From assembly GCA_022539475.1 (NCBI GenBank), contig VCMS01000060.1, forward strand, positions 62,001-126,000: a stretch of DNA of 64,000 nucleotides, read 5' to 3'. How positions within the stretch are numbered: the first letter of the stretch is position 1; every line of letters starts with the position of its first letter. The position numbers and the translations under genes are program-made. Shown here one piece after another: positions 493-19,269 of the stretch. This DNA comes from Gracilaria domingensis. Taxonomy: Eukaryota > Rhodophyta > Florideophyceae > Gracilariales > Gracilariaceae. The notes under the pieces were generated by a model. The model had not been told where the DNA came from. It searched no databases and worked only from the letters and a program-made list of their open reading frames with translations.

Positions 493-530
493 TAGCCAAT
501 CATGGCGGTTTGCCATTCGAATGTTCCTCC
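493..530 (+). repeat. 38-base direct repeat, copy 1
   Basis: The sequence starting TAGCCAATCATGGCGG recurs at 2541-2578 with only a few differences. The two copies lie about 2 kb apart, outside the large tandem duplication. They may be remains of a dispersed element or of an older duplication of the flank. Confidence 0.6.
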
Positions 531-1218
531 ACGGAGCAGAAGCTCTTTATATTTACATGGTCGCACAGGTGGTGTCGTGTCCAAGGGTACACGTATGGTT
601 CACCTACCGCGTACAAAGTGAATGACCGGTCGTGGCGAACGCACGCGTCCGCTGCGAGGAGCGCGCGCATTCGTCACCCTCCATGCCAGCAACCGCACGC
701 CCGCAGCGCTGAGCGGTATGTCGCTCTACTACCGCCGTTCCACCATTCTCTCTGTAGCCAAGGCCGCGGCAGAGTGGCGCCCAGTTAGAAATCACCCCCA
801 TTTCCTGTCATTTCTTCGCGACCGCACAACTAGTACAAAAACTGAGCTCACTGTCGAGTGACGCTCAGTCGCTTCTCGTCATTGGCAATTTGTCCTGTCG
901 GTCCAGCTGCTGGCGTGCTGGGAGACATGGTCAGGGCCCGTCCACGTCAAATTTGACTATCTCGCGCAAACTGCTTTCAGTCTTCTTCGTCATTCTATCT
1001 ATGGACTTGGCCACTGCACGGTAACAGGTGCTTTTAACTTTGTCTCAATGCACAACTGTCACTTTTCGACAAAGTTAAATGCACTTTTACCGAGCAGTAG
1101 CAAATCCACTTGCGCCTCCATTCTTCTTTCTTTTTTCTAGTCCGTCTATTCATCAAGCTCCCATTCCGCTGTTCTTTTCATATTTGCAGTTGACTCAAGC
1201 CTAATGAATCAACCGAAA

Positions 1219-1329
1219 ATGTGCAAAACGAAACGCCGCTCCTGTTGTTCGTATTTGAGCTCATTCTCCGCCAAAGTCGCAGAATGACCGCAAATAAGAA
1301 CAACAGCGATGGCGATTCGTTTTGGACAT
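1219..1329. repeat. Imperfect palindrome with 49-base arms
   Basis: The left arm 1219-1267 and right arm 1281-1329 are reverse complements at 40 of 49 positions, around a 13-base loop. Because of this symmetry both strands encode similar short peptides here, which is a by-product and not evidence of coding. It could be an old foldback element or hairpin-forming miniature transposon. Confidence 0.75.
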
Positions 1330-1550
1330 CGAAAAAAACGTCCCGAAACTTGGAAAGGTTTCCGCCCGTTTCACGGCCATCGCTCGCGATCCACACAGCA
1401 GCCTGGAAGCACATTTAGTTCGCAGTTTACACTATCTTGCCACAATCTTTCTACAACACGAGACAACGAGACTGCTCGAAGTGTTTAAGCAGCGTCATTG
1501 CATCACCTCCGACCACAGCCACTGTGGCCGTATTACAGCCCCGAAAAGGA

Positions 1551-1607
1551 GTTATCGCCTTTGACGAAAGTGCGTGGCTCAGCCACACTTTCGTGACTGG
1601 TGATAAC
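1551..1607. repeat. Inverted repeat (hairpin)
   Basis: The left arm (1551-1579, starting GTTATCGCC) and right arm (1581-1607) pair over about 27 bases with a few mismatches and small gaps, around a core ACGAAAGTG / CACTTTCGT. It is the second foldback structure within 350 bases. Confidence 0.65.
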
Positions 1608-2540
1608 TTTTCGGCGTCTACATTCCTCTCGTCTGTATCCGATGCCATCCCATCTTTCTGAGGAAATGCGTCGGAGCACTCCACGCAAACCTCCTGATGG
1701 ACTTCATAAGCTGCCGCCGCCACTTGATTTAGTTTTGCGAGACGTTCGTGCGATCCGTCACTTTCGTGAATTGCAATTAATGTAATTGCAATTTACTAAA
1801 GTTTTTTTTGATTTTTCGCCTGCCCAATGTCAATTCCATTCCAGAGACCATCACCGACCGCGTCAAGAACTTCTTCTTGAAGACGGGTCAATCTCCTCCT
1901 CGACGCCGGCATCTTCCGCGCCGCGCCGCCCCGCTCCGCACTTCATACAGCGCGCGTCGCTCCCCGGCCGGCCGCAGCACCAGCGGGAAGAACGCGTTCG
2001 TTCGCTCCGCCGTGCGCAAGCCCGGCCGCATCGTGCTGGCCGTCTTTGCACTACGATGAAAAAAGGCGGAGGAGGTGAACACAAAGCTTAGTATAACGCT
2101 TTGGAGCAGCTTCAGAAAGCATGTGGTGTTCTGAAGTTCTACCTGGCGGGACGCAAAGCACCGCAGACGAAAACGCCTGGGAGCAGCAGTAAGTCAGCGC
2201 GGGAGTTTTTCCAATGTTGCATATAGCGCAGTGAGTAGAGTCAGTCCTGGTTTCAGAGACGATGTCCGCAGCTGGATAAAGTCTTCGCCACTGTCTCGCG
2301 ATGAGAGTGCCGAGATGACCTGCATCACCGCAAACCGAGGTGAGTTCGGAACTGAACGGGAGAGGCGAGGCTTGAAGCATCGTAGGATAAGCTCCCTGAC
2401 AAGGTATGACAGCCTGACGAAGAGGCGGGAGCTTTTTGAAGGTAAGAAGGGAAACATGTCATTGCCGCCTGAGAGGGCTTGCCCCATGATGGTGACTCTG
2501 ACGAAGGCTTGCCGAACGTGTGAAGCCTTTTGCTGCGCAT

Positions 2541-2578
2541 TAGCCAATCATGGCGGCTTGCCATTCGGATGCTCCAGC
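2541..2578 (+). repeat. 38-base direct repeat, copy 2
   Basis: Second copy of the element at 493-530. The shared block contains GCCAATCATGGCGG followed by TTGCCATTCG in both copies, with one base between them differing. Confidence 0.6.
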
Positions 2579-2966
2579 ATGTAAATTGTGAGTACCTTTA
2601 CACTATTCGCATGGCGTCAGTTTGCCTTTTCCCGAGCATTCCACGGCAGCCTTGGTGTTGCTGTACGAGTAGAGAAAGCTCTAAAACTACCTTCTTGTGC
2701 ATGCAGCGCTGCTCTCGAATAAGAAAGCCCATAGCATGATTGCGTGTAATACCTTCGTAAACCTTAGATTCAAAAATAATTTCGCCGTATCCGATACAGC
2801 GAATACGGGCAACTGCCATTTGTTTCTTCTTCTAGCAATTGAATCAATTTTTACCTTGAATTGAAGTGCAATTAGACCAATATTTTGTTTCGAGAGCAAA
2901 GCGAGATTAGGTCATGACCTAGAAAACATAATGAAACGTATTCCGTCCGTACCAGCAGAAGGTTAC

Positions 2967-3215
2967 CTCTTCTCAATTTCTTGCGTCTCTGTGGGATGAC
3001 GGGGATAAAACTAGACCAGAATGCCTTGTGAGCTCCATTTGCCTGGCCTGACCACGCCAATATCAACTTGCACCCTGATATACACCCATTGCCGGTACAC
3101 GAGTGAGGGGAACGCAATGACGACTTTCGGCAATAGTGTACACATTAGACGCCTCCACAGTTTTTCTCCCAGCATTCGAAAATGAGCACGTCACTAGCGT
3201 GACCGGCGTCTCCAT
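2967..3215 (-). pseudogene. Frameshifted copy of the divergent exon
   Basis: This matches the exon at 8657-8893. The reading frame starts at the same ATG (complement of 3213-3215) and is nearly identical for about 30 codons. It then breaks where unit 1 has about 13 extra bases just after the stretch encoding ESRHCVPLTR. The splice-donor-like end survives (AGAG then GTAACC on the minus strand, 2961-2970). Compared with the unit 2 copy it is inactivated. Confidence 0.6.
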
Positions 3216-3609
3216 AACCACATACTCAGCAACGGCGCTTCTCTGTGTCTGAATTGAATGCAGGACACGCAATAGTAAATGTCGCTTGCTTTCTCATGTT
3301 TCCTTCAAACGCTGGATATTGCCACAATTGTGTCAGCATTCGGAAAGTCTGAACTCAGAGCTTTAGGTCTCAGTGAGTCAGCACTTGAGCATTTGCTTCT
3401 GGTGAGTCAGCACTCGAACATTTGTTTGCAAGGTCGGAAGACACTTCGCATCCGAGTACACTCAGCAACTCAAGAGGCCGTTTTCTAATCCTCATCTGCC
3501 TCCCTTTTTTTTGATTGCCCTTCGCCTTCTACCTCTGCAACTCGTACAGCACCATCGCGAAACAAGCTCGTGAACGATTCAATCACTCTCTTTCTGAAGA
3601 TAATTTACT
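3216..3609. promoter_or_regulatory. Divergent intergenic spacer, unit 1
   Basis: About 390 bases separate the minus-strand exon from the plus-strand gene at 3610. The matching spacer in unit 2 (8894-9281) is strongly conserved, including the leader ending in GAAGATAATTTAC just before the ATG. Conservation of a non-coding spacer together with divergent starts suggests a shared promoter. I see no clear TATA box. Confidence 0.4.
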
Positions 3610-5088
3610 ATGACTCAGGGTCAGCAAACAGGAACGGGAGAGATAAAAACCGTTACGTGGGCGTGGTTTGAAGCAGGCACCCCACCGAGGTCTGCTCGCC
3701 GATCCATGTGTACGGAGACACAGCACTCGAACCATTTCGCACCATCACTCGAAAGCCTTGCCATTTTCGACGAGATTAAAGCTGTGACTCACAAATCTCG
3801 CTCACATGCGCTAACCAGCCTGAAGTCGATCAGGAACGTCAACACATCCGACCTGGGAAGCTGTGGACAAAGCTTCAGCAACATTGCAGCTCACCGCTGG
3901 TTTGACCCATCCTGTCAAAGGAAGCCGTCTGGAAAAGAGCTTGCTGACACGGTAAACGTTCGCAACGAAGTGAGCTCCCCAGAAAGAATATGGAGGGGCA
4001 TATTTGAAAACCCTTCGAACGTCTTTACTTCAAGGCCGATTGTTGCCTCCAAAGACGGTAGTTGCGGATATGCGATGGGATCAAGAAATGCTTTATCTAG
4101 CAATGCTTGCCCAGATCGAGTTGCAGCGGGCATTTCACATGGGCCTGCAGGGAAATCTTTGCTCAATACTTCACCACATTCTGAGCATTTTACCCCGTCT
4201 GCTGAAAGCCTAGCGATCTTTGACAAGATCAAATCCGAGGTTCACCAGTCTCGCTCGGCTGCAGTGACGAGCTTAAAATCGGTTCCAAAGGCGAACAGCT
4301 CCGATTCTGGAAGAGACATTCTCCCACCAACTACGACCCATACAGGTCGCAGTTGGTTTGATTCATTGGTTCCACAGAAGCGGTTCGAAAAACTGCTTGC
4401 CGGCGATGAAAAGGTTCGTCAGAATGTGAGGTCCCCAGAAATGAGGGACCTATTTAGAAATCGTTCGCGACCGTGGATGTCAAAGGCCACTGAAGCCTTC
4501 AAGAACGGCACATGTGGTAATGGAGCAGATTTTCAGCGTGATAAGAAGTTGAAGCCATCATCTCGAGAGAGTGCCGCGAAGGGAATGAAAGCAATAGGAA
4601 TGGAAAGAGTGGAGAGGAACGACGGAAAAGGAACTTCAGGGGACATGGCCGGGTTCAGTACCTTGCGCAGGATTGTTATACCTCAGAAGAAAACGTTTGG
4701 CCCCAAGACGCAGGCGGAAATGAGGGCGGAAGAATGGAAGCAGCAAGTGGTGGATTACCAGAAGAGGCTTCGAGGTGAATCTCCCGAAAATTTCGAGCTG
4801 TGGGATCGAGAGCATGTTCCATTCCAGCTTCGGTCGTCCAGACCTAGCGTAGCATCGGGGGCCTCGAATGGGTGGGAGTTGAATGACGTTTTCGTTCGAC
4901 GTATGGCTGCTAAGATGAGACGGAATGCTTCCCAGCGCGAGTTTAAGCCCGAAGGGATGATGAAGAGGTGGTGGTCGCGAGTAGGTAACGGAGTTAGACG
5001 GATTGTGGATGCTGTCGCAACCAGGATGAGAAGCTTGTGGAAAATGGTGCGCATGTTGTTGTGCTCCTCGCAGACGATCATCGCATGA
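3610..5088 (+). CDS. Orphan 492-aa protein with an internal duplication (unit 1 copy)
   Basis: I do not recognise this protein. It is hydrophilic and basic and has no signal peptide. Residues about 21-125 and 172-277 are an internal repeat: each half has the order HSNHF/HSEHF, ESLAIFD-[EK]-IK, SLKS, a WFD tripeptide and VR followed by SPE. The C-terminal third contains a strongly conserved block (QKKTFGPKT, AEMRAEEWK, FELWDR, PFQLRSSRPSVASG). The last 45 residues are basic and amphipathic, ending in a short hydrophobic stretch that could contact membrane or RNA; that is a guess. A 490-aa paralogue lies at 9282-10754 with the same start context and full-length collinearity, which argues that the frame is under selection. 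It is convergent with the minus-strand gene at 6668-8134. Coding status is likely; function unknown. Confidence 0.75.
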   Translation: MTQGQQTGTGEIKTVTWAWFEAGTPPRSARRSMCTETQHSNHFAPSLESLAIFDEIKAVTHKSRSHALTSLKSIRNVNTSDLGSCGQSFSNIAAHRWFDPSCQRKPSGKELADTVNVRNEVSSPERIWRGIFENPSNVFTSRPIVASKDGSCGYAMGSRNALSSNACPDRVAAGISHGPAGKSLLNTSPHSEHFTPSAESLAIFDKIKSEVHQSRSAAVTSLKSVPKANSSDSGRDILPPTTTHTGRSWFDSLVPQKRFEKLLAGDEKVRQNVRSPEMRDLFRNRSRPWMSKATEAFKNGTCGNGADFQRDKKLKPSSRESAAKGMKAIGMERVERNDGKGTSGDMAGFSTLRRIVIPQKKTFGPKTQAEMRAEEWKQQVVDYQKRLRGESPENFELWDREHVPFQLRSSRPSVASGASNGWELNDVFVRRMAAKMRRNASQREFKPEGMMKRWWSRVGNGVRRIVDAVATRMRSLWKMVRMLLCSSQTIIA

Positions 5089-6667
5089 GGTCGAGCTTGC
5101 TAGCCTCAACACGCGGCGAGATTTGTCTCCAGGTTAGAGCAGAAGTAAATATTTCTTTCGCACTTTCAGTTACACGAGCTCATGCATTGACCATACATTA
5201 ATACAGCTATAGAGCAATACTAACACATCGCCCTCGCCCTCGTGCAGTGTTCTTGGTCAATAGAGATGAGGAATACAGGGACCGATCTAATGTAAATCAG
5301 AGATACGTGTGGCACTACCTGTGGCGTAGATCGATCCGTTTGATCGATGTTCCCAACAGACACAAGTGCGTTTCCGATATCTGCAAAAGTAGTGCACGAA
5401 GGTGTACCTCCGTGTCGCGGATGGAGGCGCTCTCGACCTCGATCAGTCCGGATGGACGTGGAAAAGCGGACCAAGTAACTCTCCATGACGTACAATACCT
5501 CCGTTTCTGTCATCGAATGCTTTTGTTAATCAATTTTGTATTGCTTCTCATGTCTAATAATTCCAACTCACAGAGTAGTAGTCAAGTTGCAAGTTTGGTC
5601 TTAGGATAACTGGCTGTTAATGTAGCCCAAGTGATTTGGACTGCACACCAACAGTCGCCCATGTTTCAGGACTAACGATTGTGACTGCATTTTCTGCCTG
5701 GGTTTGTTGTTGAAGCTCCACATCGCCACTCTAGAAGCTAGGCTAAAAGAACATGCATGGATATGCAGACGGGCTAAATTAAACACAGAGTCAATGTAAT
5801 GCATCTCAGATTGCCAAAAGTTGAGTGCAGTACCCATGAAAGGTGTGTTTTGGGCGACGCACAGGCTGTTCATCGAAACGCTTTTACATTACATTATAGG
5901 CACCATCAGATGTCTATCTTACTCAAACCACAACCACCAGGCCTGACAACCACCCAACTCGCATCTTTATAGCAACATGCGACCAGCACAACCAGTTTCG
6001 CTCTTTGATCGCTGCCGGTGGGCGCAGCAATGTAAAATGTGACGGAAGGATATCACAAATGGCCGCCATCAAGCTGCCATCTTCGTCAGAAAGTGCAATC
6101 CCTGATGGCCAAGGAAACGGCCGCGTTGCGCGTAGGACATATCGCTCAGAAGTTCTGAGTCAGAACCCGTTTCGCAATTGCTATTCTCGAAAGCTAATTT
6201 ATTTCCAGCCGCCGTCGAAGCTGCAGCTTTCATCGCGCTCGGCACGACAACACTGCCACCAGGGAAAATGTGGACACGTGGGACTGTCTGCACCTTCTCA
6301 CCTTCCGAATTCATTGCTTTGCATGGCTGCCCACCGCAGGGCGCTGACAGTAGGTGCGAAGGTGAGCGCGGCAATTGGAACAGCGCCATTCGAATTAGAG
6401 CGTGTCACGCCGCGCGCAGTTGAGATTGTTTGATGCTGCGCACGTCTAATTGAGGGGGACGGCGGAGATCAGGATGCGAGCTGAACATGCTTTACCTCTT
6501 CTCTACAAGCTACTCCCATTCCAATAGATGTCTTCGGCACCCCCTCACCGCCTCCTGTCCACGCCGTCGTCCACGCCGTGCCACCGCCCCAAGCCAAACT
6601 CTGCCGTCTCGGCTCCAGAAGCGCGCCGAACACTTGCGGCAAAGATTTCCGGCGCTCTCTCGAGCGG
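5089..6667. other. Spacer between convergent genes, unit 1
   Basis: No supported gene. It holds the 3' flank of the 492-aa gene, conserved in unit 2 (5089-5460 against 10755-11110), and blocks that match 11440-11555, 12465-12895 and 14168-14500. The part at 6240-6480 is again conserved in unit 2 next to the minus-strand gene. The frame at 6005-6433 is not conserved as protein between the units and is rejected as a gene. Confidence 0.55.
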
Positions 6668-8134
6668 CTACAGCGCCGCCGTCCGCTCCACCTCGCGAGC
6701 AAAGCCCGCGCCACCCGAAGAAGACGACGAGTAGCTGCTCGTACTATCCGTCGCCTCATCGCCGCCCCAGTTCCTACCCACACCCGCAACCGCCCGCACG
6801 CCGTCCGCCCGCCTTGCCTCTTCGCCGCGCGCCGTCGCCGCACCAGCCACCTCCTCCCGCGCACGATTTCCAACGCAGTCGTCTTCCTGCCCGGCGTATC
6901 GCCGCGGATGATGGGCAGCCTGCGCGTCATAGTGCAGTGAAGGAGACCGGCCTTGCGCGGCAGCACGGTCATGCGCGTCAGCATCGTCAGCGACATACGC
7001 GTAGGAGTCGTCGCGGTATTCCGAAAAGCGGGGGCTTTCGATCACGTAAGCTCCTCTCGCGCCACCGGTATCGCCGACAGCCTCTGCGCTTGGCCCGTCC
7101 ACAACCTGGCCGCTCTGCTCGTGGGGTACAGAAGCGGCGGCAGCGGGAGAGCCACCATGTCGCACCGACGAAGACGGGCTTTCGATGACGTAAGCGCGTC
7201 TCGTGCCACGCCCAGAATCACCGCCCGCTAGCTCGCCTTGCTCCGCCACCGTCTGCGGGACAGAATCAGCGGCCGCGGGAGAAGCACCATGCTCTACCGA
7301 GGAGGATGGGCTTTCGATGACATAAGCGCGTCTGGCGCGACGCCCACAATCACCAACCGCCCTCAAACCTTTTTCCTCCAGCGCCAGTCTGGACGGCTCT
7401 GCCGCGGCTTCATTTCCTTCACCGCCCCGGGAAGCAAGCACGGTGCTCGTCTCATGGCGTTTATCACTGGAGACGAAAGGCTGGCGATCGACGTAGTGCA
7501 CACGACGACGCTTCGGTGAGGGGCCGGGCGCGGACGGGGCCATGTTTGGCGGCAACGGAGCGGCGACAGTTTCCGAGCGCTGAGTTCTGTCAGCAGAGAT
7601 GCTGTCAGCGCTTCTCTTTCGTCCGCGTTGCGTCGGCATCGGCGGCGAAGGCCATCTCGCCACGAGATACGTGCGTTGCATGGGCACGACCATGGGGCGG
7701 AGGTAGCGGCGGGGACAAGGGAGGTCCACGACTGCACTGCGGGGTAGACGCTGGGGCGGTGTATATGGGGGACCCGGCAAGACGGCTTCGGGCGTGTTTT
7801 CCGCAAACGCTTCGGCTCCCGATGCGGCGACAGCAGACAAACATCGAGGAGAGAACGCCCATTCCTCTCTCGATGTGTCTGTGATTGGCCGTAATGGTGT
7901 TACCAGGGGAACATTCGCAGAATGGTGGGGTCGGAGGATGAAGCCGTCATATGGGTCTGCCTCAGCCTCGCGTAATAGTGCCGGCGATGAGGCAGCAGCA
8001 TAGCGGTACGGATCTGGGTGAAACGGGGGCAGACGAAGGGTTACGGGAAAGGCTCCTTCGCCGTACTGGGGGTGGACTGAGGAGGATGAGGCGGCGGAGC
8101 TGGAGTGAGTGCCGGTGGGGGTGGGTGAAGACAT
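6668..8134 (-). CDS. Orphan Arg/Ser/Pro-rich, probably nuclear protein, 488 aa (unit 1 copy)
   Basis: Family unknown. The start (ATG at 8132-8134, context AAACCATGT) is conserved in the unit 2 copy. Residues 170-174 read RGRKR and 205-212 PSPKRRRV, two likely nuclear-localisation signals. Three spaced repeats of about 45 residues share the core [RG]AYVIESP, at 269, 313 and 361; the Ser-Pro and Ser-rich tails look like phosphorylation sites. The C terminus is Gly/Ser/Asp-rich and low in complexity. Compared with unit 2 (533 aa) it ends about 45 codons early at a TAG (6668-6670) lying in a 6-base insertion. The frame beyond the stop still encodes the paralogue's tail. The codon-rich antisense frame (6487-7188) is judged a shadow because the minus frame is longer and has the conserved start. 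Confidence 0.65.
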   Translation of the reverse strand: MSSPTPTGTHSSSAASSSSVHPQYGEGAFPVTLRLPPFHPDPYRYAAASSPALLREAEADPYDGFILRPHHSANVPLVTPLRPITDTSREEWAFSPRCLSAVAASGAEAFAENTPEAVLPGPPYTPPQRLPRSAVVDLPCPRRYLRPMVVPMQRTYLVARWPSPPMPTQRGRKRSADSISADRTQRSETVAAPLPPNMAPSAPGPSPKRRRVHYVDRQPFVSSDKRHETSTVLASRGGEGNEAAAEPSRLALEEKGLRAVGDCGRRARRAYVIESPSSSVEHGASPAAADSVPQTVAEQGELAGGDSGRGTRRAYVIESPSSSVRHGGSPAAAASVPHEQSGQVVDGPSAEAVGDTGGARGAYVIESPRFSEYRDDSYAYVADDADAHDRAAAQGRSPSLHYDAQAAHHPRRYAGQEDDCVGNRAREEVAGAATARGEEARRADGVRAVAGVGRNWGGDEATDSTSSYSSSSSGGAGFAREVERTAAL

Positions 8135-8509
8135 GGTTTAAGGGTTGGTGAGAAAGGTGGAAGACTGAAAGGCAGGGTTAGATTGAGAGAAGGAAAGCAG
8201 ATTGGTTGGAGGCTGGAGGCAGAGGAGAAGGGCAGCCGGATGCATCGGGTAGCGACCAACGCGCTCTGCTCTTGTACGCTTCGCCCCGCACAATGGCGGG
8301 CGGCCTCTCCCAAAGCGCGCGTCATTTTCACTTCGGTTTGGGAGAGTGTGTGCTGTTTCGGGTCATGTTGAAGGCGATGGTTTCGTGGACGTCACCCCCG
8401 TGGCCGACGACGTGGAGGGCGAGACGCTCCGCGCGAGCAGTGAATGGAGCACAATGCAATGCAGATTCGTCCACTTTCGGGGACGCCGATGATCTCCCGT
8501 CACGATGAG
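8135..8509. other. 5' leader region of the minus-strand gene, unit 1
   Basis: On the minus strand the 150 bases before the ATG at 8134 are pyrimidine-rich (CT tracts), as in unit 2 (16107-16260). The rest is conserved between the units up to about 8615/16600. No gene is evident. Confidence 0.4.
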
Positions 8510-8893
8510 TCAATTACAACCACAACGTCCATGTGCAAAGTGTGGCCGCGAAGTGTATAGTGCTCCGCTCACAAGATCTTCATGTCGAAATAGCATTGTA
8601 CACCTTCCTTGAATTACCTCGAATTGAATATACCGTCGGTACCGTCTGCAACTTACCTCTTCCCATTTCTTGCGTCTCTGTGCGGTGTCGGTGATAAAAC
8701 ACTCGTTCAGAATGTCTAGTGTGCTCCACTTCTCTCGGCTGGTCCCACCAACATCAACTTGCACGCTTTGCCCGTCACGGGTGAGGGGAATGCAATGACG
8801 ACTTTCAGCGATAGTGTACACATTAGACGTCTCCACAGTTTTGCTCGCAGCATTCGAAAATGAGCACGTCACTAGCGTGACCGGCGTCTTCAT
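8510..8893 (-). CDS. Short divergent gene or first exon (unit 2)
   Basis: From the ATG at 8891-8893 a frame of 79 codons reaches a strong 5' splice-donor-like site, AGAG then GTAAGT (complement of 8651-8660). The donor falls exactly between codons. Unspliced, the frame runs on to a stop at 8510 (127 aa). The peptide (starting MKTPVTLVTC) has no domain I recognise. In-frame sequence continues upstream without another ATG, so it could also be an internal exon. It sits head to head with the 490-aa gene at 9282, and the arrangement is conserved but frameshifted in unit 1. Homology between the units stops just beyond the donor, inside the presumed intron. Confidence 0.4.
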   Translation of the reverse strand: MKTPVTLVTCSFSNAASKTVETSNVYTIAESRHCIPLTRDGQSVQVDVGGTSREKWSTLDILNECFITDTAQRRKKWEEVSCRRYRRYIQFEVIQGRCTMLFRHEDLVSGALYTSRPHFAHGRCGCN

Positions 8894-9281
8894 AACCACA
8901 TACTCAGCAACGGCGCTGCTCTGTGTCTGAATTGAATGCAGGACACGCAATAGTAAATGTCGCCTGCGTTCATGTTTCCTTCAAACGCCGGATATTGCCA
9001 CAATTGTGTCAGCATTCGGAAAGTCTGCACTCAGAGCTTTAGGTCTCAGTGAGTCAGCACTTGAGCATCTGCTTTCGGTGAGTCAACGCACTCGAACACT
9101 TGTTAGCAAGGTCGGAAGACACTTCGCATCCGAGTACACTCAACAACTCAAGAGGCCGTTTTCTAATCCTCATCTAACTCCCTTTTCTTTTATTGTCTTT
9201 CGAATTCTACTTCTGTAACTCGTACAGCATCTTCGCGAAACAAGCTCGTGAACAATTCTATCTTGCTGAAGATAATTTACC
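8894..9281. promoter_or_regulatory. Divergent intergenic spacer, unit 2
   Basis: Counterpart of 3216-3609. It lies between the minus-strand ATG at 8893 and the plus-strand ATG at 9282. The 60 bases before the plus ATG (CGAAACAAGCTCGTGAAC, then GAAGATAATTTAC) are almost unchanged between the copies, consistent with a retained promoter and leader. Confidence 0.4.
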
Positions 9282-10754
9282 ATGACTCAGGGTCAGCAAA
9301 CAGGAACGGGAGAGATAAAAACCGTTACGTGGGCGTGGTTTGAAGCAGGCACCCCGCCGAAGCCTGCACGTCAATCCATGTATTCGGAGACACAGCAATC
9401 GAACCATTTCACACCATCACTCGAAAGCCTTGCCGTTTTCGACGAGATAAAGGCTGTTAATCACAAATCCCGTTCAGATGCACTGACCAATCTGAAGTCC
9501 ATTAGGAACATCAACGCATCCGACCCTGAAGGCTGTGCACACAGCTTCAGCAACATTACAGCTTGCAGCTGGTTTGAACCACACTGTTCAAGGATGCCGT
9601 CTGGAAAAGATCGTGCCGACAAGGTAAACGTTCGCAACGAAGTGAGCTCCCCAGAAAGGAGGGGCGTATTTGAAAACCCTTCGAACGTCTTTACTTCAAG
9701 GCCGGTTGGCTCGTCCAAAAACGGCAGTCGCGGATATGGGATGGGACCAAGAAATGCTTTATCTAGCATTGTTTGCCGAAATCGAGTTGAAGCAGGCACC
9801 CCACAAAGGCCTGCAGGGAAGTCTTTGCTCAATGTGTCAGAAAATTCTGAGCATTTTACCCCGTCTGCTGAGAGCCTAGCGATCTTTGACGAGATCAAAT
9901 CCGAAGTTCACCAGTCTCGCTCGGCTGCAGTCACGAGCTTAAAATCGGTTCTAAAAGCGAACAGCTCCGATTCTGAAAGAGACATTCTCCTACCAACTAC
10001 GACCCATACAGGTCGCAGTTGGTTTGCCCCATTGGTTCCACAGAAGCCGTTCGAGATACAGTTTGCCGGTGATGGGAAGGTTCGTCAGGACGTGAGATGC
10101 CAAGGAATGAAGGGCACATTTGGCAGTCGTTCAGGATCTGTAATACCAAAAGAGACTGAAGACATGAAGAACGGCACCTTTGGTAATGAAGAGGACAAGC
10201 TGTTTGATAAGGGATTGAGGCTATCATCTCATGAGAGTGGTTCGAAGAGAGTGAAGGTATTGGGAATGGAAACACTGGACAAGAAGGACGAAACAGTTAC
10301 CCCAGGGGACAAGACCGGATTCAGTACCCTGCGCTGGAAAGTTGTACCTCAGAAGAAAACGTTTGGACCTAAGACGCTGGCGGAAATGAGAGCAGAAGAA
10401 TGGAAGCGGCAAGTTTTGGCTCACCAGAAGAGGCTTCAAGGTGAACCCCCCAAAAACTTTGAGTTGTGGGATCGCCGTCATGTTCCATTCCAGCTTCGGT
10501 CGTCGAGACCTAGCGTAGCATCCGGAGCGTCAAATGGGTGGGAGTTGAATGACGTATTCGTTCGACGTATGGCTGCTAAGATGAGACGAAATGCTTCCCA
10601 GAGCGAGATTAAGCCGGACGGGATGATGAAGAGGTGGTGGTCGCGAGTAGATAACGGAGTTAGACGGATTGTGGATGCTGTCGCGACCAGGATGAGGAGT
10701 TTGTGGAAAATGGTGCGCACGTTGTTGTGCTCCTTGCAGACGATCATCGCATGA
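9282..10754 (+). CDS. Orphan 490-aa protein with an internal duplication (unit 2 copy)
   Basis: Paralogue of the protein at 3610-5088, collinear from start to stop with only short in-frame length differences. The same internal repeat is present, with ESLA followed by [VI]FDEIK twice. The C-terminal 130 residues are the most conserved, including QKKTFGPKT, FELWDR, SGASNGWELNDVFVRRMAAKMRRNAS and MKRWWSRV. In the middle (about residues 270-330) the two copies differ much more, as expected of a linker. No known family fits. A reading frame that stays open across two clearly diverged copies is the best evidence that it is a gene. Confidence 0.75.
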   Translation: MTQGQQTGTGEIKTVTWAWFEAGTPPKPARQSMYSETQQSNHFTPSLESLAVFDEIKAVNHKSRSDALTNLKSIRNINASDPEGCAHSFSNITACSWFEPHCSRMPSGKDRADKVNVRNEVSSPERRGVFENPSNVFTSRPVGSSKNGSRGYGMGPRNALSSIVCRNRVEAGTPQRPAGKSLLNVSENSEHFTPSAESLAIFDEIKSEVHQSRSAAVTSLKSVLKANSSDSERDILLPTTTHTGRSWFAPLVPQKPFEIQFAGDGKVRQDVRCQGMKGTFGSRSGSVIPKETEDMKNGTFGNEEDKLFDKGLRLSSHESGSKRVKVLGMETLDKKDETVTPGDKTGFSTLRWKVVPQKKTFGPKTLAEMRAEEWKRQVLAHQKRLQGEPPKNFELWDRRHVPFQLRSSRPSVASGASNGWELNDVFVRRMAAKMRRNASQSEIKPDGMMKRWWSRVDNGVRRIVDAVATRMRSLWKMVRTLLCSLQTIIA

Positions 10755-12934
10755 GGTCGATCTTGCTAGCCTCGCGGCGAGATTTGTCTCCAGGTTAGAG
10801 CAGAGGTAAATATTTCTTTCGCACTTTCAGTTACACGAGCTCATGCGTTGACCATACATTAATACAGCCATAGAGCAATAATAACACATCGCCCTCGTGC
10901 AGTGTTCTTGGTCAATAGACATGAAGAATACAGGGACCGATCTAATGTAAATCAGAGATACGTGTGGCACTACCTCTGGCGTAGATCGATCCGTTTGATC
11001 AATGTTACCGACGGACACAAGTGCGTTTCCGATATCTGCAAAAGTAGTGCACGAAGTTATTATACCTCCGTTTCGCTAATGGAGGCGCTTTCGACCTCGA
11101 TCAGTCCAGAGGGACTTCGAACTCGTGTGTGATAGATGGAGGGAGGCGGATTAATTTGCATTCGTCATTCCCTGATTGGACGATGTGCACGTGACTGTAT
11201 GACGACTCTCACCTCATCCGTCAACTATCCTGTCTGTCAACTGGAGTTTCTCACACGTTGCCGCCAATCTTTCTCAAATCTAGCGCTTGAAAACGGTCCA
11301 AGTAACTCTCCTTAACGTATTTTCGTTTCTGCCATCGAATGCTTTTGTTAACGTTACATGCTCATGGATGGCACAGAGAGAATACACATCAATGTTAATC
11401 AGTTTTATTTCAGTTTTGTAGCAGTCAAGATACGAGTTTAATCTTAGGATAAATGATTGTTATTGTAGCAAAGTGATTTCGACTGAACACTGATTGTCAC
11501 CCATTTTTCAGTGCTATTGATCGTGACTGTATTTTCTGTCTGGGTCTGTTGTTAAAGTGGTTGTCCGATGTTGTTGCTGCAACACATTTTGCTCTGTGAA
11601 GCAGCCTCCACTGTGAGCCACAAGTTGTTTGGCGGGAAACCTGAATATGTTACCCTCACGTAATTCCATGAAACAAGGGGACTGATCAGACGACGACTGC
11701 GAAAGTCTGATGGCCATCCATGCTGTATTGAAGGTAAAGGTCACGATCGTTTGTATTGCACACCTTTGCACGTCACGAAAAGAGGGTGTTCACCAACTTT
11801 AGCGCGGATTGAATCATTGCAATGTTGCTGAATGGAGTCAAGAAGGTAAAAGACCAGGTAGCCAGAAGCCGTGGATCAAAGATATTGTTGCCAGATAGAG
11901 CTCTGGAGAGATTTGCAGTCGGCATGGAAGTAGAACAGAACTGAAGTGGCGGTAATTTGAGTTGCCGCAGCTCGCGCTTGGAAAAAGCCAGAACAGGAAG
12001 AGTGATGAGAGCTTATGTAGAGAAAAGGAATGAACAGCGTCGCTCTCCAGCAAAATACAGGAGGTGGAAGCAGTTCAAACTAGATTTGGACCAAGTCTTG
12101 AAGTGTAGAAGAGTGAGTGCGCGGAATTATGAGATGCCTACAAAATGTGAGCAGCTGAGGCACAAGGAATTGAAGCAATATGAAAGGAAGAAACAACGGT
12201 GGTCAAAACGAGAGCCGAGCTAAAGTTCTGACGAAGATCCAGTAAATGTTGAGGAGAGGGTGGCGGTGTGATCAAGACAGGAAGAATAGAAGTAGAAGTA
12301 ACTGAGTTGCAGATCAGGAAAAGTACTGATGGGAAGCTGCGAAGGCTTAGGGAATGGAAACAAGGCAGGAATGCGATAGGAATGGGGCACCCAAGCTTGA
12401 AAAGTGAACAGATGTGAGCTGAAATGCACGGAGCGATGCTGACAAGAGCCGACAGAATAGTATGCATGGAAGTGCAGAGGGACTAATTCAAACACGGAGT
12501 CAATGTAATGCATTTCAGGCTTCAAAATGTTGAGTGCAGTACCCATGAAAGGTGTGTTTTGGGCGCAAGCTTGTCCATCGTAACGCTTTTACATTGGATT
12601 ATATCCACGATCAGGTTTCTCTCTTACTCCAAACACAACCACCCAACTCGCATCTTTATAGCAGCACCACCAGTTCCGCTCCTTGATCGCTGCCGATGGG
12701 CGCAGCGATGTGAATTGTGACGGAAGGATATCACAAATGGCTGCCATCAAGTTGCCATCTTCGTCAGAAAGAGCAATCTCTGATGGCCACGGAAACGGCC
12801 GCGTGGTGCGTGCGACATATTGCGACATGCTCAGAAAGCAATTCGCAATTGCAATTCTCGAAAGCTAATTTATTTACTTCCAGCCGCCGTCGAGGCTCCA
12901 ATTCCAGCCAACACCTTGCGACGTGTCAACCTCC
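10755..12934. other. Spacer of unit 2 with blocks absent from unit 1
   Basis: The first 350 bases match the 3' flank of the unit 1 gene. Compared with unit 1 there are extra blocks at about 11112-11280, 11355-11400 and 11556-12465. The last contains a frame at 11957-12223 (88 codons, rich in Lys, Arg and Gln, coiled-coil-like), which I cannot support as a gene. Homology to unit 1 resumes at about 12465 and runs to 12897. Confidence 0.5.
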
Positions 12935-14168
12935 TCATTCATTCCTCCGCCTTCCCCTAAGCCGCATCGCTCTCGCCGTCTGCCGCGCGTGCGCGTTCGG
13001 CGACAAACACGCCACTCTTTCGGCAGACGCTGCCAGACGCACCGCCGTCCTCCCATCCTCCTCGCCGCGTGCGAGCGCCAAAGGCGGCGCGCATGAACCT
13101 CCGTCGCCAGCCGTCTGCAAGACGTCCCACAGCGCGTCCACGAGCGCCTTCGGCACGGGCGGCAGATAGACGCGGTACGTCCATGGCGGTCGCTCCTCCG
13201 GAAGCTCCCTGCGTCCAGCTTCCGCGGCGGTGGGGGTGACAGCAGCGACGGAAGCGCCGGAAGCACGAGGTTGGCCGTGGTGGCGGCGTAACACGCGGCC
13301 CACACCGTCGTCCATCGCGCGACGACGCTGCTCAAACCGCCGCCTCCTCCACTCGCGATGCCCCGTCGGCGAGCCCGCTTCGGGCGAGCTATCGGAGAGC
13401 GAGATTGGCACGCGGAGTCGCTTTGGCACCGGCGGGGAGGACGGCGGCGTGAAGGCAAACAGCATTGAGGGCGATGAACGCATTTGCACCACTTCGCTGT
13501 CCGTGGTGTCTCCCGTGCCGTCATCTGACAGAGCTTCGGCGCCTCTCTTTGTTCCTCTAGGCGCCGGCGACGGTATCGCGATTGGCTGCGGGGACGGCGG
13601 CGTCGGCCACGCGAGGCCGGTGGCGAGCAGGACGCGGCGGCGGCGGCGGCGATTGCGGATGGCCTGTCGAAGGCGGAGCTTCGCGATGTGCGCGCGGGGC
13701 CGGCGCGGCGCCGTCTGGATGTGGGGAGTGGCAACGGGGTGGACGTCAGGTGTGGGGTTTGCGTCCGGTGGGGAGATTGAGGCGGCGAGGCTGTTAGGGG
13801 TGGAGTGGGGCGTGAAGTCGGCCATGGTTGGTGTGAGTTGGGAAGACGGGGATGGCAATCAGGAAGATAGAACGGGGTTTGTGTGTGGGGTGTGCAGGGT
13901 GAGTTGGGGGTCAAGGAAGGGATGGATGTGGGTGCGGAGCTGTTCAGCGTTGAATTCGGGCTCGGCTTATGTATGCTCGCGGAGGTGGGCAGCATTGGCT
14001 CGTGACGGGCAGCGCGCGTCATGGCGTGCTGATAATGACGGCGTAACTCTCCCGCCGCCTCTCGCGCGGCGGCGGAGGCGACGCGACATGGCGGCGGCGG
14101 GGTTCGGAGAGGCGTTGGGCGCGTGATGGGGGAGCGGACGTCGGGAGGTCACTTGCATGATCACGCGG
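12898..14168. other. 1.27-kb block present only in unit 2
   Basis: Unit 1 reads straight through at the equivalent point (about 6217, after GCCGCCGTCGAAGCT), whereas unit 2 has this very GC-rich block between GCCGCCGTCGAGGCT and GCTGCATTCAACGCGCTCGG. It contains the gene at 12935-13825. I see no clear terminal inverted repeats or target duplication, so insertion in unit 2 and deletion from unit 1 are both possible. Confidence 0.65.
12935..13825 (-). CDS. Orphan Arg/Pro/Ser-rich, probably nuclear protein, 296 aa
   Basis: Start chosen at the ATG at 13823-13825, in the context ACCATGG. The protein is highly basic and Pro-rich: an Arg cluster near residues 55-65, RGTKR at 90-94 followed by GAEALSDDG, and a second likely nuclear signal PKRLRV at 134-139 followed by SDSSPEAGSP. 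This order, RG[TR]KR[GS]A[ED] then PKR[LR]RV, is the same as in the proteins at 6668-8134 and 14505-16106, suggesting a diverged member of one family. The C-terminal part has a more ordered segment (PPWTYRVYLPPVPKALVDAL). A 382-codon minus-strand frame (12874-14022) and a 298-codon plus frame overlap it in other phases; GC-rich codon bias makes such shadows common, so certainty is limited. Confidence 0.5.
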   Translation of the reverse strand: MADFTPHSTPNSLAASISPPDANPTPDVHPVATPHIQTAPRRPRAHIAKLRLRQAIRNRRRRRRVLLATGLAWPTPPSPQPIAIPSPAPRGTKRGAEALSDDGTGDTTDSEVVQMRSSPSMLFAFTPPSSPPVPKRLRVPISLSDSSPEAGSPTGHREWRRRRFEQRRRAMDDGVGRVLRRHHGQPRASGASVAAVTPTAAEAGRRELPEERPPWTYRVYLPPVPKALVDALWDVLQTAGDGGSCAPPLALARGEEDGRTAVRLAASAERVACLSPNAHARQTARAMRLRGRRRNE

Positions 14169-14504
14169 CTGCGGCTGCATTCAACGCGCTCGGCGCGGCA
14201 GCACTGCCACCGCCGCCGATGTGGACACGTGTGGCCGTCTGCACCTTGTCACCTTCCGAATTCATTGCTTTGCATGGCTGTCCGTCGTACGGCGCTGACA
14301 GAAGGTGCGAAGGTGAGCGCGGCAATTGGAACAGCGCCGTTCGAATTGGAGCGTGTCACGCCGCGCGCAGCTGAGATTGTTTGTTGCTGCGCACGTACCT
14401 TCGGTGTAATTGAGGGGGACAGCGGAGATCAGGATGCGAGCTGAACATGCTTTACCTCTTCTCTACAAACTACTCCCATTCAAATAGATGTCTTCGACAC
14501 CTCC

Positions 14505-16106
14505 TCACCGCCTCCTGTCCACGCCGTTCCCCATGTCGTGCCATCGCCCCACATACGCACCACGCCCCAAGCCAAACTCTGCCGCCTCAGCTCCAGAAGC
14601 GCGCCGAACGTATGCCACAAAAACTTCCGACGCTCTCTCGTGTGGCGCCGCCGCCCGCTCCACCTCGCGATCGAAGTCCCCGCCACCCGAAGACGACGAC
14701 GAGTAGCTGCTCGTACTATCCGTCCCCTCATCTCCGCCCCAGTTCGCACCCACACCCACAACCGCCCGCACGCCGTCCGCCCGCCTTGACTCTTCGCCGC
14801 GCGCCGTCGCCGCACCAGCCACCTCCTTCCGCACACGATTTCCGTCGCTGTCGTCTTCCTGCCCGGCGTATCGCCGCGGACTATGGGCAGCCTGCGCGTC
14901 ATAGTGCAGTGAAGGAGACCGGCCTTGCGCCGCCGCACGGTCATGCGCGCCTGCATCGTCAGCGACATACCCGTAGGAGTCGTCGCGGTATTCCGAAAAG
15001 AGGGGGCTTTCGATCAGGTAAGCTCCTCTCGCGCCACTGGTATCGCCGACAGCCTGTGCGCTTGGCCCGTCCACAACCTGGCCGCTCTGCTCGTGGGGTA
15101 CAGAAGCGGCGGCAGCGGGAGTGCCACCATGTCGCACCGAGGAGGACGGGCTTGCGATGACGTAAGCACGCCTCGTGGCACGCCCAGAATCACCGCCCGC
15201 CAACTCGCCTTGCTCCGCCACCGTCTGCGGGACAGAGTCAGCGGCCGCGGGAGAAGCACCATGCTCTACCGAGGAGGATGGGCTTTCGATGACATAAGCG
15301 CGTCTGGCGCGACGCCCACAATCACCAGCTGCCCTCAAACCTTGTTCCTCCAGCGCCCGTCTGGACGGCTCTTCCGCCGCTTCATTTCCTCTACCGTCCC
15401 GGGAAGCAAGCATGGTGCTCGTCTCATGGCGTTTATCACCGGAGACGAAACACTGGCGATCGACGTAGTGCACACGACGACGCTTCGGTGAGGGGCCGGG
15501 CGCGGACGGGGCCATGTTTGGCGGCAACGGAGCGGCGACAGCGTGCGAGCGCTGAGTTCTGTCAGCAGAGATGCTGTCACCGCTTCTCTTTCGTCCGCGT
15601 TGCGTCGGCATCGGCGGCGAAGGCCATCTCGCCACGAGATACGTGCGTTGCATGGGCACGACCACGGGGCGGAGGTGCCGGCGGGGACGAGGGACTTCCG
15701 CGAGTGGACTGCGGGGTAGACGCTGGGGCGGTATATATGGGGGACCCAGCAAATCGGCTTCGGGAGTGTTTTCCGCAAACGCTTCGACTCCCGATGCGGC
15801 GACAGCAGACGAACATCGAGGAGAGAACGCCCATTCCTCTCTCGATGTGTCTGTAGTTGGCCGTAATGGTGTTACCAGGGGAACATTCGCAGAATGGTGC
15901 GGTCGGAGGATGAAGCCGTCATATGGGTCTGCCTCAGCCTCGCGTAATAGTGCCGGCGATGAGGCAGCAGCATAGCGATGCGGATCTGGGTGAAACGGGG
16001 GCTGACGAAGGGTTGCGGGAAAGGCTCCTTCGCCGTACTGGGGGTGGACTGATGAAGATGAGGCGGCGGAGCTGGAGTGAGTGCCGGTGGGTGTGGGGGA
16101 AGACAT
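14505..16106 (-). CDS. Orphan Arg/Ser/Pro-rich, probably nuclear protein, 533 aa (unit 2 copy)
   Basis: Paralogue of 6668-8134 with the same start (ATG at 16104-16106) and near-identical N-terminal 110 residues. It keeps RGRKR, the PSPKRRRV nuclear signal and three [RG]AY[VL]I repeats; here the cores are AYVIESP, AYVIASP and AYLIESP. It lacks the 6 bases that create the TAG in unit 1 and so runs 45 residues further through a Glu/Ala/Arg-rich tail (beginning HERASEVFV). Substitutions between the copies are scattered and mostly in frame. The gene is convergent with 9282-10754, with the 12935-13825 gene lying between them on the same strand. Function unknown. Confidence 0.65.
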   Translation of the reverse strand: MSSPTPTGTHSSSAASSSSVHPQYGEGAFPATLRQPPFHPDPHRYAAASSPALLREAEADPYDGFILRPHHSANVPLVTPLRPTTDTSREEWAFSPRCSSAVAASGVEAFAENTPEADLLGPPYIPPQRLPRSPLAEVPRPRRHLRPVVVPMQRTYLVARWPSPPMPTQRGRKRSGDSISADRTQRSHAVAAPLPPNMAPSAPGPSPKRRRVHYVDRQCFVSGDKRHETSTMLASRDGRGNEAAEEPSRRALEEQGLRAAGDCGRRARRAYVIESPSSSVEHGASPAAADSVPQTVAEQGELAGGDSGRATRRAYVIASPSSSVRHGGTPAAAASVPHEQSGQVVDGPSAQAVGDTSGARGAYLIESPLFSEYRDDSYGYVADDAGAHDRAAAQGRSPSLHYDAQAAHSPRRYAGQEDDSDGNRVRKEVAGAATARGEESRRADGVRAVVGVGANWGGDEGTDSTSSYSSSSSGGGDFDREVERAAAPHERASEVFVAYVRRASGAEAAEFGLGRGAYVGRWHDMGNGVDRRR

Positions 16107-16600
16107 GGTTTACGGGTTGGTGGGAAAGGCGGAAGACTGAATGGCACGGTCAGAATGAGAGAAGGAAAGCAGATGGGTTGGAGGCTGGAGGCAGAGGAGA
16201 AGGGCAGCCGGATGCATCGGGTAGCGATCAACGCGCTCTGCTCTAGTACGCTTCGCCCCGCACAATGGCGGGCGGTCTCTCCCAAAGCGCGTGTCATTTT
16301 CACGGCGGTTTGGGAGAGTGTGTGCCGTTTCGGGTCATGTTGACGGCGATGGTTTCGTGGACGTCACCCCAGTGACTGACGACCTGGAGGGTGGGGCGCT
16401 CCGCGCGAGCGGTGAATGGAGCACAATGCAATGGAGGACAATGCAATGGAGACGCATCCACTTTCCGAGACGCTGAAGATCTCCCGTCACGATGAGTGAA
16501 TTACAACCGCTACGTCCACCTGGAAAGTGTGGCCACGTAATGTATGGTGCTCGGCTGACAAGATCTTCATGTCGAAAGCCAGCAATGTACACCTTCCTAC

Positions 16601-17541
16601 GTGAAAACCTTGTTAGGTTGATGATAGTCTTCTTCCAAGATAATTAATCCGCCTATTCCACGTCCTGTTGTGCTATCGTCAGCAACAGTTCTCCTTGCGG
16701 GACGAGGGAAATTCGCAAGAACTCAGAGTAGGAGGGAGGAGGAGAAAAAATCGATGGTCTCCAGATAATGTCTTAGCTTTTTCTGACATTGAACGACGAT
16801 TAAACATGTGTCCAAATCAAACGCAAATGATCAAGTAGTGAATCATCCTTCAACCTTTCCGCAATTACCTGAACACAAATAAGTACGTAATCAGTTACAA
16901 AAAGCAATCAAGTAAAGATAAAAGCCAACAGCACAAGCAAGTAAATGATTGCGGAGACAACATAGATTGACACTTCACAATGAAGATTTTGAAGCTTAAT
17001 TTAGGATTAACAATTCTTTTTGTTTCAATGCGACAAATATAGTTTTGCAGCAAGCTCTTTGTTCATGCCAAAGTCGCAAAGAACGGAACATAGACTTTAG
17101 CGGGAAGCTTTGGGAAATTGAAACAATTTAAATATTTTATGTGCGTTTTGGCGACAAGATAAATTTCAAATTAATGTTGAATACCGCTTTTTCCAGAACC
17201 CGTGATATAGTAATAGATTTAAGATCTTATTACAAAAGCATGGTTGAAATAGAAAGTAATATATTCTAAGTAATTCTGAAGTTTCATCGAACATTGGTTT
17301 ATACCTTAATATATATCGAGAGGTGCATTACTCTCATAGTCATAATAATATTTTTAATAGTTTGTCTATTACATATATCATCTACACAAAAATGTGCGTT
17401 TTATACATAACTGTAATTTGGTGTACTAATTTCAAATGTAACGAAAGGTTTACATGCGAAGCTCTGCGTCTGTGTTACAGATACCATATATATGACTCCC
17501 AAACCAAGCCTCCTCTAAGATCTCCGTCACAGGTATGAAGC
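16601..17541. other. AT-rich intergenic region
   Basis: Beyond the end of the duplication the composition turns AT-rich. Frames here are short and of low complexity. It is the 3' flank of the GCC-repeat gene that ends at 17542. No repeat or gene recognised. Confidence 0.5.
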
Positions 17542-19269
17542 TTAATCGAGATCTACACACTCACATGTAAAACCACCAAATACACTGTTCACTCTCCGCG
17601 TCGTCATTGGACATTCCAGATCTGAGAGCGATGGACTTCCAAAGTTCATATCTGTACACCCCAAGCAAGCGTTGAAACGTTCTACAAACGGAAACGTTCC
17701 TGGTGGGCACTGCAAACAAATGTTATCAATATTAACTTCATCGTCTTCGCAATCTGTACATGTGCCATTTTTCTCGCCTTGTCTCTGCGGACAACGACAA
17801 GCGAAAGTGCTCAAGCCTGCAAATCTACCAGACGACAATCTCAGCGTGCATGGCTCACAACTTATGGCTCCAAACGACGAGAATTCGTTTGGCGAACATT
17901 GGGTGCAGCCGTTTTCGGATATGAAAGTATTCTCAGGGCAAGTGCGGCATGAGCCTGATACCAAAGCTGTACCCACCAATGGACATTCTACTTGGTTGCA
18001 ACCGGATTCCGTAAGTCGAGCTCCAGCCGGACAGGAAGTGAGGGGATCCCGACAGATGCAGCCGGCACCGAAATCTGCACAAGAAGCGAGAAAGCCGTCT
18101 GGACAAGGGATGCATGCTGCCGCACCAGAGCTCCCAACTGTGTACTCGTTTTCAGCACACTGTGAACACTGCAGCGAACCAGGTACGCTTATAAACCCTG
18201 CGCCGCAGGGTCTACAACCTGTTGTATCTGACGAGCTAAACGTGCCAGCTGGACATTTCTCACAGAATCCTTTTCCAAAATCTTGTGTCCCAGCTTCACA
18301 CTGACAAAGCGCTTGTCCGAAATTTGTACTGAGATCTGTCGGTGTTTTCCCTGGTGGGCAAAGACGACACCGCATTGTTGCACCACCTGAGCTCACTTCC
18401 CCCGGTCCGCATTTAACACACGTTTTGCTTTCACTATCAAATCTTTCACCAGGTAAACAAGCTCGGCACTCGCCGCTTTCGTCCTCAAACGTGTTGGAGG
18501 GACATCCCGATACGCTATCTCTACAACCTGCGGGGCGAATACCAAGGCTCGAAGTGTTCGGTGGGCACTGCTCACAGGTTCTCGAAAACATCAGAAATCG
18601 AAATGTGCCGGATGGGCATGGGCGACATCTCAAACCGTCTGGTGATGACAGCGTACCAAGAGGACATAAGCTGCAGCTTTCGGAGCCATCCTCGGCGGCA
18701 AACTGGTTTGGCGGGCATTGGGTGCAACCAATCTCTTCCAGAGAACCAGATGCAGCGCCGAAAAGAGGGGGTATGGGTAGTTCCATGGGAACAGTACCAG
18801 CAGGACATGGAACACATTTCGTGGCTCCACGAACGCTGGACATACCAGGAGGACATGGGAAACAAGTGGGTCCAACAGTGTCGCTGAAAAATCCGGGTAT
18901 ACATGGTTCACACCCGAACCTGGCGGAATCAATCCCAAATCCTGGATTGCATGTAATGCAAGGAACCTCTCCAGAGCTCGAAACAAGACCTTCAGCGCAG
19001 GGGATGCAGGAGGAGCTGCCACGGAAGTTGTATGTATCCTGCGGGCACACCATGCAAGACCTGAACGAGGTCGCACCAGCAATTGTGCTGAAAGTCCCTT
19101 GGGGGCAGGGGACGCATCGAGTGGAGTTGGCTTCGTCCTGGAAGAATCCAGCTGGGCATAGCACGCAACGGCCGGCCTCGAGTTTGCTCCCGGGCGGGCA
19201 GAGAGCCGCTGTAGAGGCGGTCAGGAGGAGTATGACCAGAAAGTAGAGCAGTTGGAGCGACTTCGCCAT
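17542..19269 (-). CDS. Secreted cysteine-rich GCC2/GCC3 (ephrin-receptor-like) repeat protein, 575 aa
   Basis: Start chosen at the ATG at 19267-19269, which opens a clear signal peptide (MAKSLQLLYFLVILLLTA, then STAALC). The whole mature chain is a tandem series of 45-to-50-residue modules with the pattern CPPGTFS/CxxCPxG, typical of the GCC2/GCC3 or ephrin-receptor-like extracellular domain (for example CPAGFFQDE, CPQGTFST, CPAGTFSSSD, CPPGTFPF). The Cys content is very high and even, implying disulphide-bonded repeats outside the cell. There is no transmembrane segment or GPI-like tail before the stop, so it is secreted as it stands, or a membrane exon is missing. An upstream in-frame extension to 19395 lacks such features and is not used. 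It is head to head with the von Willebrand A gene at 20210; both products are extracellular. Likely functional. Confidence 0.85.
   Translation of the reverse strand: MAKSLQLLYFLVILLLTASTAALCPPGSKLEAGRCVLCPAGFFQDEANSTRCVPCPQGTFSTIAGATSFRSCMVCPQDTYNFRGSSSCIPCAEGLVSSSGEVPCITCNPGFGIDSARFGCEPCIPGFFSDTVGPTCFPCPPGMSSVRGATKCVPCPAGTVPMELPIPPLFGAASGSLEEIGCTQCPPNQFAAEDGSESCSLCPLGTLSSPDGLRCRPCPSGTFRFLMFSRTCEQCPPNTSSLGIRPAGCRDSVSGCPSNTFEDESGECRACLPGERFDSESKTCVKCGPGEVSSGGATMRCRLCPPGKTPTDLSTNFGQALCQCEAGTQDFGKGFCEKCPAGTFSSSDTTGCRPCGAGFISVPGSLQCSQCAENEYTVGSSGAAACIPCPDGFLASCADFGAGCICRDPLTSCPAGARLTESGCNQVECPLVGTALVSGSCRTCPENTFISENGCTQCSPNEFSSFGAISCEPCTLRLSSGRFAGLSTFACRCPQRQGEKNGTCTDCEDDEVNIDNICLQCPPGTFPFVERFNACLGCTDMNFGSPSLSDLECPMTTRRVNSVFGGFTCECVDLD

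Follow-up and report, generated by a model that had tools for sequence, protein, structure and literature searches.

We describe a tandemly duplicated gene block in the red alga Gracilaria domingensis, which carries members of two protein families, P1 and P2, neither of which has a Pfam match over the cut-off. The block lies in a 64,000-nucleotide stretch of DNA, here called the window, that corresponds to C60:62001–126000 in a 77.9-Mb assembly of 680 contigs (C plus a number denotes a contig, and positions given without a contig are those of the window). The duplication is a local tandem event inside a larger gene array, holding two unrelated families. To judge by its substitutions, P1 clearly behaves as a protein gene under selection, and its constraint is sharply limited to short blocks; P2 also appears to be kept by selection, which is supported less firmly and is visible against diverged copies only.

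BLAST comparison of the region with itself and with other fetched contigs resolves two abutting direct copies, unit A (2939–8609; 5.7 kb) and unit B (8629–16598; 8.0 kb), at 79–90.6% identity, and so bears out an earlier note on this DNA, which had proposed the tandem duplication of a compact cluster. Two large blocks align at 86.5% (2939–5463 with 8629–11121) and 90.6% identity (6220–8609 with 14171–16598), and two short ones (5575–5715 and 5753–6225) are 79–80% identical to unit B. Each unit contains an intact P1 on the plus strand and an intact P2 on the minus strand (Table 1), as had been claimed; a divergent short exon, the third component assigned to each copy, is unconfirmed. A third gene, P4, is present in unit B only, in a stretch that is absent from unit A. 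A third P2–P1 block, again without P4, is found on C124 (28901–34450). Additional copies of P2 and P4 lie upstream on C60 and on C102, together with P3 genes and a zinc-finger gene present in duplicate.

Selection and motifs in P1

The whole-gene ratio of nonsynonymous to synonymous substitution (omega; Nei–Gojobori) is 0.52–0.54 in three P1 pairs, with intervals below 1. When the observed substitutions are re-dealt neutrally, the frame stays free of stops in none of 2000 runs for the A/B and A/C124 pairs and in 1.7% for B/C124, and amino-acid changes are fewer than the neutral expectation in all three pairs (z −3.0 to −3.5). The constraint is unevenly spread: in a 49-codon scan of A against B, the proportions of synonymous (pS) and nonsynonymous (pN) differences are 0.30 and 0.03 at residues 393–441, and 0.29 and 0.28 at residues 295–343.

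Blocks were set solely from the identity between two remote paralogues, C262 and C326, at three settings (137–165 codons). Inside these blocks, omega is 0.10–0.16 for B/A and 0.15–0.18 for B/C124, as against 0.81–0.86 and 0.71–0.84 outside. Blocks drawn by hand from the family alignment, a choice that is partly circular, give 0.14–0.15 inside and 0.88–0.98 outside, and the same kind of block separates other pairs (C262/C74, 0.27 versus 0.74; C326/C15, 0.32 versus 0.81). An AlphaFold2 model of copy B has six helices (47–77, 196–226, 366–385, 403–406, 424–439, and 446–489), five of which coincide at least in part with the constrained blocks (approximately residues 39–75, 191–222, and 361–440). 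The model was built from an 11-sequence alignment and has a mean predicted local distance difference test score (pLDDT) of 45.7, which is low confidence.

At E ≤ 0.001 the family has at least 12 loci, spread over 11 contigs. The search scored only the best candidates and listed 29 matches at E ≤ 1; the weak candidate on C306 (E 0.45) has no match to any of five proteins. A helix motif, F/Y-x-PS-x-ESL-x-V/I-FD-E/Q-x-K (FxPSxESLAIFDxIK in copy A), occurs in all 11 aligned members, twice in nine and once in those of C42 and C137. A C-terminal motif, H-I/V-PFQLRSS...SGAS-x-GWELN in most members, is found in 10 of the 11, being absent from C137 and divergent in C14. In copy A the motifs stand at residues 43, 194, and 402. 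A search of PDB sequences with P1 returned nothing significant (best E 1.3), and comparison of the P1 and P2 profiles revealed no similarity, so that P1 is ruled out as a relative of P2.

P2 and the P3/P4 family

Ten matches, by our own grouping, fall into seven P2 loci. Among the close pairs of A, B, and C124, whole-gene omega is 0.78, 0.89, and 0.68, with an interval below 1 for B/C124 alone; neutral runs are stop-free in 12.8%, 4.2%, and 2.9%, and amino-acid changes are not separable from neutral (z −0.7 to −1.2). The signal emerges against the diverged copies on C102 and upstream on C60 (C60u), of which only the open parts were used, a choice that favours the stop test. When C60u or C102 is compared with A, B, or C124, all six pairings are stop-free in 0–2% of runs (500 each) and have z of −2.3 to −3.2; the corresponding values for C60u/C102 are 52% and −2.6. 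Omega is lowest in the core (residues 140–216; 0.40 against C60u and 0.30 against C102) and the repeat region (261–400; 0.32 and 0.35), the latter also being 0.31 (0.10–0.93) for B/A. It is higher in the spacer at 217–260 (0.73 and 0.90), in the N-terminal part (0.62 against C60u; 1.19 on 21 codons against C102), and in the tail (0.90 against C102). The earlier supposition that selection has kept both long frames therefore holds for P1 and, less firmly, for P2, where the diverged copies alone speak for it; in the Ka/Ks comparison that was to decide the matter, the P1 pairs are below 1, and of the three P2 values in the close pairs (0.68–0.89), two cannot be told apart from 1.

Several P2 copies are shortened or broken. 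Copy A ends early through 6 bases that are missing from the four other copies, and encounters a TAG on extension to the length of copy B; the C102 copy changes frame, and C60u carries stops in its distal part. Among the five copies, gap runs are multiples of three in six of nine cases inside the copy B frame versus three of nine upstream of it; of the three exceptions inside, C102 has one, and the other two fall where C60u ends.

The P4 search yields at least 15 loci, by our own grouping of 18 matches (eight on C60, three on C102, two on C169, and one each on C54 and C42). P3 pairs have omega of 0.44–0.79 in 21 of 21 cases, 16 of them with intervals below 1. For P4, one pair is stop-free in 21.5% of neutral runs, with z of −2.9 for amino-acid changes, and the AlphaFold2 model has a mean pLDDT of 55.4. 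A basic core, RGRKR...PPxPKRRR, is conserved in the serine/proline-rich P2, P3, and P4 proteins, and its clusters RGRKR and PKRRRV in P2 and P4 appear, by eye, to be of the nuclear-localisation type. The P2 and P3/P4 profiles have a 53-column core in common (hhalign probability 87%, E 4e-6), on which basis P2 and the adjacent P4 may be old relatives, with a certainty that is lowered by the low complexity of the sequence.

We note three further observations on these loci. A gene for a 336-residue protein (L010:1416–2426 and L013:3796–4806) is duplicated alongside P2 and P3 on C60 and C102, with omega of 0.58 (0.32–0.98), and its C60 copy has a C2H2 zinc-finger match in Pfam. In L060 (C169:376801–380900), two P3-like genes that encode an identical protein lie ~1.8 kb apart and point outward (376987–377925, minus; 379698–380636, plus), an inverted duplication. 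In L015 (C54:30001–37000), a P2/P4-like stretch adjoins a frame containing the terminal part of a JmjC domain.

Linkage of the two families and alternative explanations

P1 and P2 occur together solely in a single duplicated block, of which the window holds two copies and C124 a third. Ten other P1 loci were fetched (L033–L042; nine at E ≤ 0.001 and C14 at E 0.008), in stretches of 5–8 kb with ~2–3 kb on each side, and P2, P3, P4, or zinc-finger matches at E ≤ 1e-4 were found in none of them; nor was P1 found in the stretches fetched around the remaining P2 loci, four in number (C60 upstream, C102, C54, and C42). At all four loci outside the P1/P2 blocks, P4-like matches lie beside P2. Since the partner is missing from the fetched stretches at the other loci, the neighbourhood of P1 and P2 is best read as a property of one duplicated block, and the pairing was dropped as a unit of function; the paired system suggested in the earlier note is not supported.

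Between the copies, the DNA on either side of P1 differs less than do the synonymous sites within the gene. The 5′ flank differs between A and B at 35 of 502 aligned sites (7%) and the 3′ flank at 4% of sites, set against a whole-gene synonymous divergence (dS) of 0.25 for P1 and 0.07 for P2. A single duplication with a single clock is inadequate, because the P1 value exceeds both the divergence of the flanks and that of P2; the low divergence of the flanks points to gene conversion over part of the unit, or else to constraint on the flanks themselves. The conserved divergent spacer described earlier is present as DNA that ranks with the best-conserved parts, and the short exon placed in it is out of register: on the minus strand 5′ of P1, the frames of A and C124 stop soon after PLTRVPAM and that of B, which has a 1-base difference, continues, and a 99-residue exon query was matched whole in B alone. 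As a gene, the exon was ruled out, the frame not being common to the copies, and we infer that this stretch is better read as a promoter or leader.

In one rival reading, P1 and P2 are a functional unit, transcribed divergently from a two-way promoter, with products that act together. P2 copy A and P1 copy B, like the C124 pair, stand head to head, so the natural unit may be a divergent P2–P1 pair and not the convergent one described earlier. This order recurs with an interval of 1.1–1.2 kb (ATGs at 8134 and 9282 in the window, and at 32229 and 31005 on C124), and the conservation of the P1 flanks beyond its synonymous sites would fit a promoter. We nevertheless think a functional pair unlikely, given the 10 P1 loci and four P2 loci without the partner; in addition, whole-genome lists show no P2 upstream of P1 copy A and no P1 upstream of P2 copy B, and the three pairs are accounted for by descent of a single block.

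That P2 and P4 are not genes at all, and that their frames stay open through the high G+C content and scarcity of stops in this DNA, is a quite unlikely reading. The G+C content is indeed 64% in P2 and 70% in P4, P4 has a second stop-free frame besides staying open in about a fifth of neutral runs, and the intervals of two of the three close P2 pairs extend past 1. Chance openness leaves unexplained, however, the deficit of amino-acid changes in all six diverged P2 pairs and in P4, the low omega of the P2 core and repeats against diverged copies, the frame-keeping gaps within P2, and the consistently lowered omega of P3. Least probable of all is that a mobile element carried the repeated unit and so dispersed its genes. 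Copies do lie on several contigs, and transposon genes are not far away (DDE_Tnp_4 at C60:45 kb, RVT_2 at C102:60 kb, and RVT_1 at 62280), but the copies are unequal in extent, no inverted repeats of at least 40 bases were found in window positions 1–20000, and the genes of the unit include no transposase, integrase, or reverse transcriptase by Pfam. Against Pfam, neither the six window proteins nor the tested P1, P2, P3, and P4 members had a match over the cut-off, transposon families included (weak rows at E 0.06–0.09 only, among them SpoIIIAH for P1 copy B at E 0.062, far under its cut-off), and no known DNA-binding domain was detected by Pfam in the scanned members. The earlier statements that neither P1 nor P2 belongs to a recognisable family, and that a known transposon protein would speak against the cluster, are answered by this result: no Pfam transposon family is matched over the cut-off by either. 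Viral or prokaryotic relatives were looked for separately with the C-terminal block of P1 and with the P3/P4 family, and none was confirmed in the viral (viral_contigs) and prokaryote (genome_contigs) collections, in which P2 was not searched; the viral result speaks likewise against the mobile cargo.

The features of the two units are listed in Table 1. Elsewhere in the window, a 644-residue cysteine-rich protein is encoded on the minus strand at 17542–19476 (Ephrin_rec_like and ELAPOR1 TNFR-like matches), and there are ankyrin repeats at 47484–48041, a piece of a HECT domain at 49811–50494, and a piece of a reverse transcriptase at 62280–62894. The plastid-like contig C680 (179,836 bases) holds 10 of the 12 phycobilisome-family matches of the genome, with phycocyanin- and phycoerythrin-type genes, which in a genome of this size would fit a red alga. 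Its phycocyanin alpha chain has phycocyanin alpha chains as best PDB matches, from which it differs at many positions; for phycoerythrin beta, the top PDB match is a chain labelled 'bacterial fluorescent protein beta', 2.4 bits above an R-phycoerythrin.

Table 1. Genes and conserved flanks of the two tandem units, in window positions
Feature	Position	Strand	Description
P1 copy A	3610–5088	+	492 aa; intact open reading frame; two helix motifs and conserved C-terminal block; predicted disordered
P1 copy B	9282–10754	+	490 aa; intact open reading frame; 75% identity to copy A
P2 copy A	6668–8134	-	488 aa; intact open reading frame; basic core and YVIESPSSS-type repeats; 89.5% identity to copy B
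P2 copy B	14505–16106	-	533 aa; intact open reading frame
P4	12935–13825	-	296 aa; unit B only; P3/P4 family, which forms an array upstream on C60
P1 copy A 5′ flank	3100–3609	no strand	Conserved; site of the proposed divergent short exon; A/B alignment and frame test
P1 copy B 5′ flank	8778–9281	no strand	Conserved; within the 1.1-kb interval that separates P2 copy A from P1 copy B
P1 copy A 3′ flank	5089–5400	no strand	Conserved; 12/301 aligned sites differ between A and B

Interpretation and comparison with known families

We consider it probable that the locus reflects the birth-and-death growth of two disordered, motif-carrying families, which would act through the docking of short motifs, with P2, P3, and P4 as nuclear adaptors and with P1 and P2 adjacent by descent. 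P1 proteins are dispersed and, by prediction, largely disordered, their helix motifs and C-terminal motif being joined by linkers whose evolution is almost unconstrained. Predicted disorder, motifs, and basic clusters suggest that both families act by docking other proteins through short motifs: P1 would serve as a scaffold, with its helices and its C-terminal block as binding sites, and P2, P3, and P4 would be nuclear adaptors under the control of proline-directed phosphorylation. Copies would be gained, lost, and broken through unequal crossing-over and segmental duplication, and P1 and P2 would be neighbours through the descent of one block, forming no obligate pair.

Several results weigh against this interpretation. 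The docking and nuclear roles are read from disorder predictions, from motifs, and from clusters of basic residues; both AlphaFold2 models are of low confidence, for which shallow alignments (11 and 12 rows) may be partly responsible; and the core common to P2 and P4 is low-complexity sequence. An earlier definition of the P1 blocks from four paralogues separates nothing at its looser setting (omega 0.53 versus 0.50 and 0.54 versus 0.53) and gives 0.44 versus 0.66 and 0.40 versus 0.70 at its stricter one; it was replaced by C262 and C326 alone because it included two similar paralogues and separated poorly. The recent P1 pair C326/C102 (L035 and L036; C102:144 kb) has omega of 1.49 (0.93–2.57), a hint of relaxed or diversifying selection. 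Finally, the P2 core is not shown to be constrained in the close pairs (B/A, 2.52, 0.34–3.99; B/C124, 0.57, 0.25–1.28), and the N-terminal part and tail of P2 have omega of 0.57–1.43 across the measured pairs.

A bolder elaboration, which we regard as very unlikely, is an undescribed red-algal modular docking system, in which P1 scaffolds, each with 35-residue helices in repeat and a C-terminal block of the GWELN type, would work with a growing array of P2/P3/P4 nuclear adaptors, some of them co-expressed from a two-way promoter, with rapid evolution of the linkers. The analysis adds two multi-gene families without a Pfam model to a poorly annotated group and locates the P1 blocks under the strongest constraint; profile searches in red-algal genomes, like binding experiments, can start directly from these blocks.

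The closest known kind is that of lineage-specific, or taxonomically restricted, gene families with birth-and-death evolution in tandem arrays. The families described here resemble them in that copies arise both in tandem and by segmental duplication, diverge fast, and are sometimes broken, and in that no catalogued domain is present; a point of difference is that P1 has its constraint sharply limited to short blocks. A literature search found no description of the P1 or P2/P3/P4 families among the papers listed, a weak result for families without a name to look for. For Gracilaria genomes, 408–620 species-specific orthogroups and orphan genes are reported per species (PMC10388701); those orphan genes are likewise red-algal, without annotated relatives, and from genomes of similar size, a likeness drawn from their description. 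Although dehydrins (PMC11763121) are land-plant proteins, and are likened here by architecture, they too are disordered, with short conserved segments set between variable regions.

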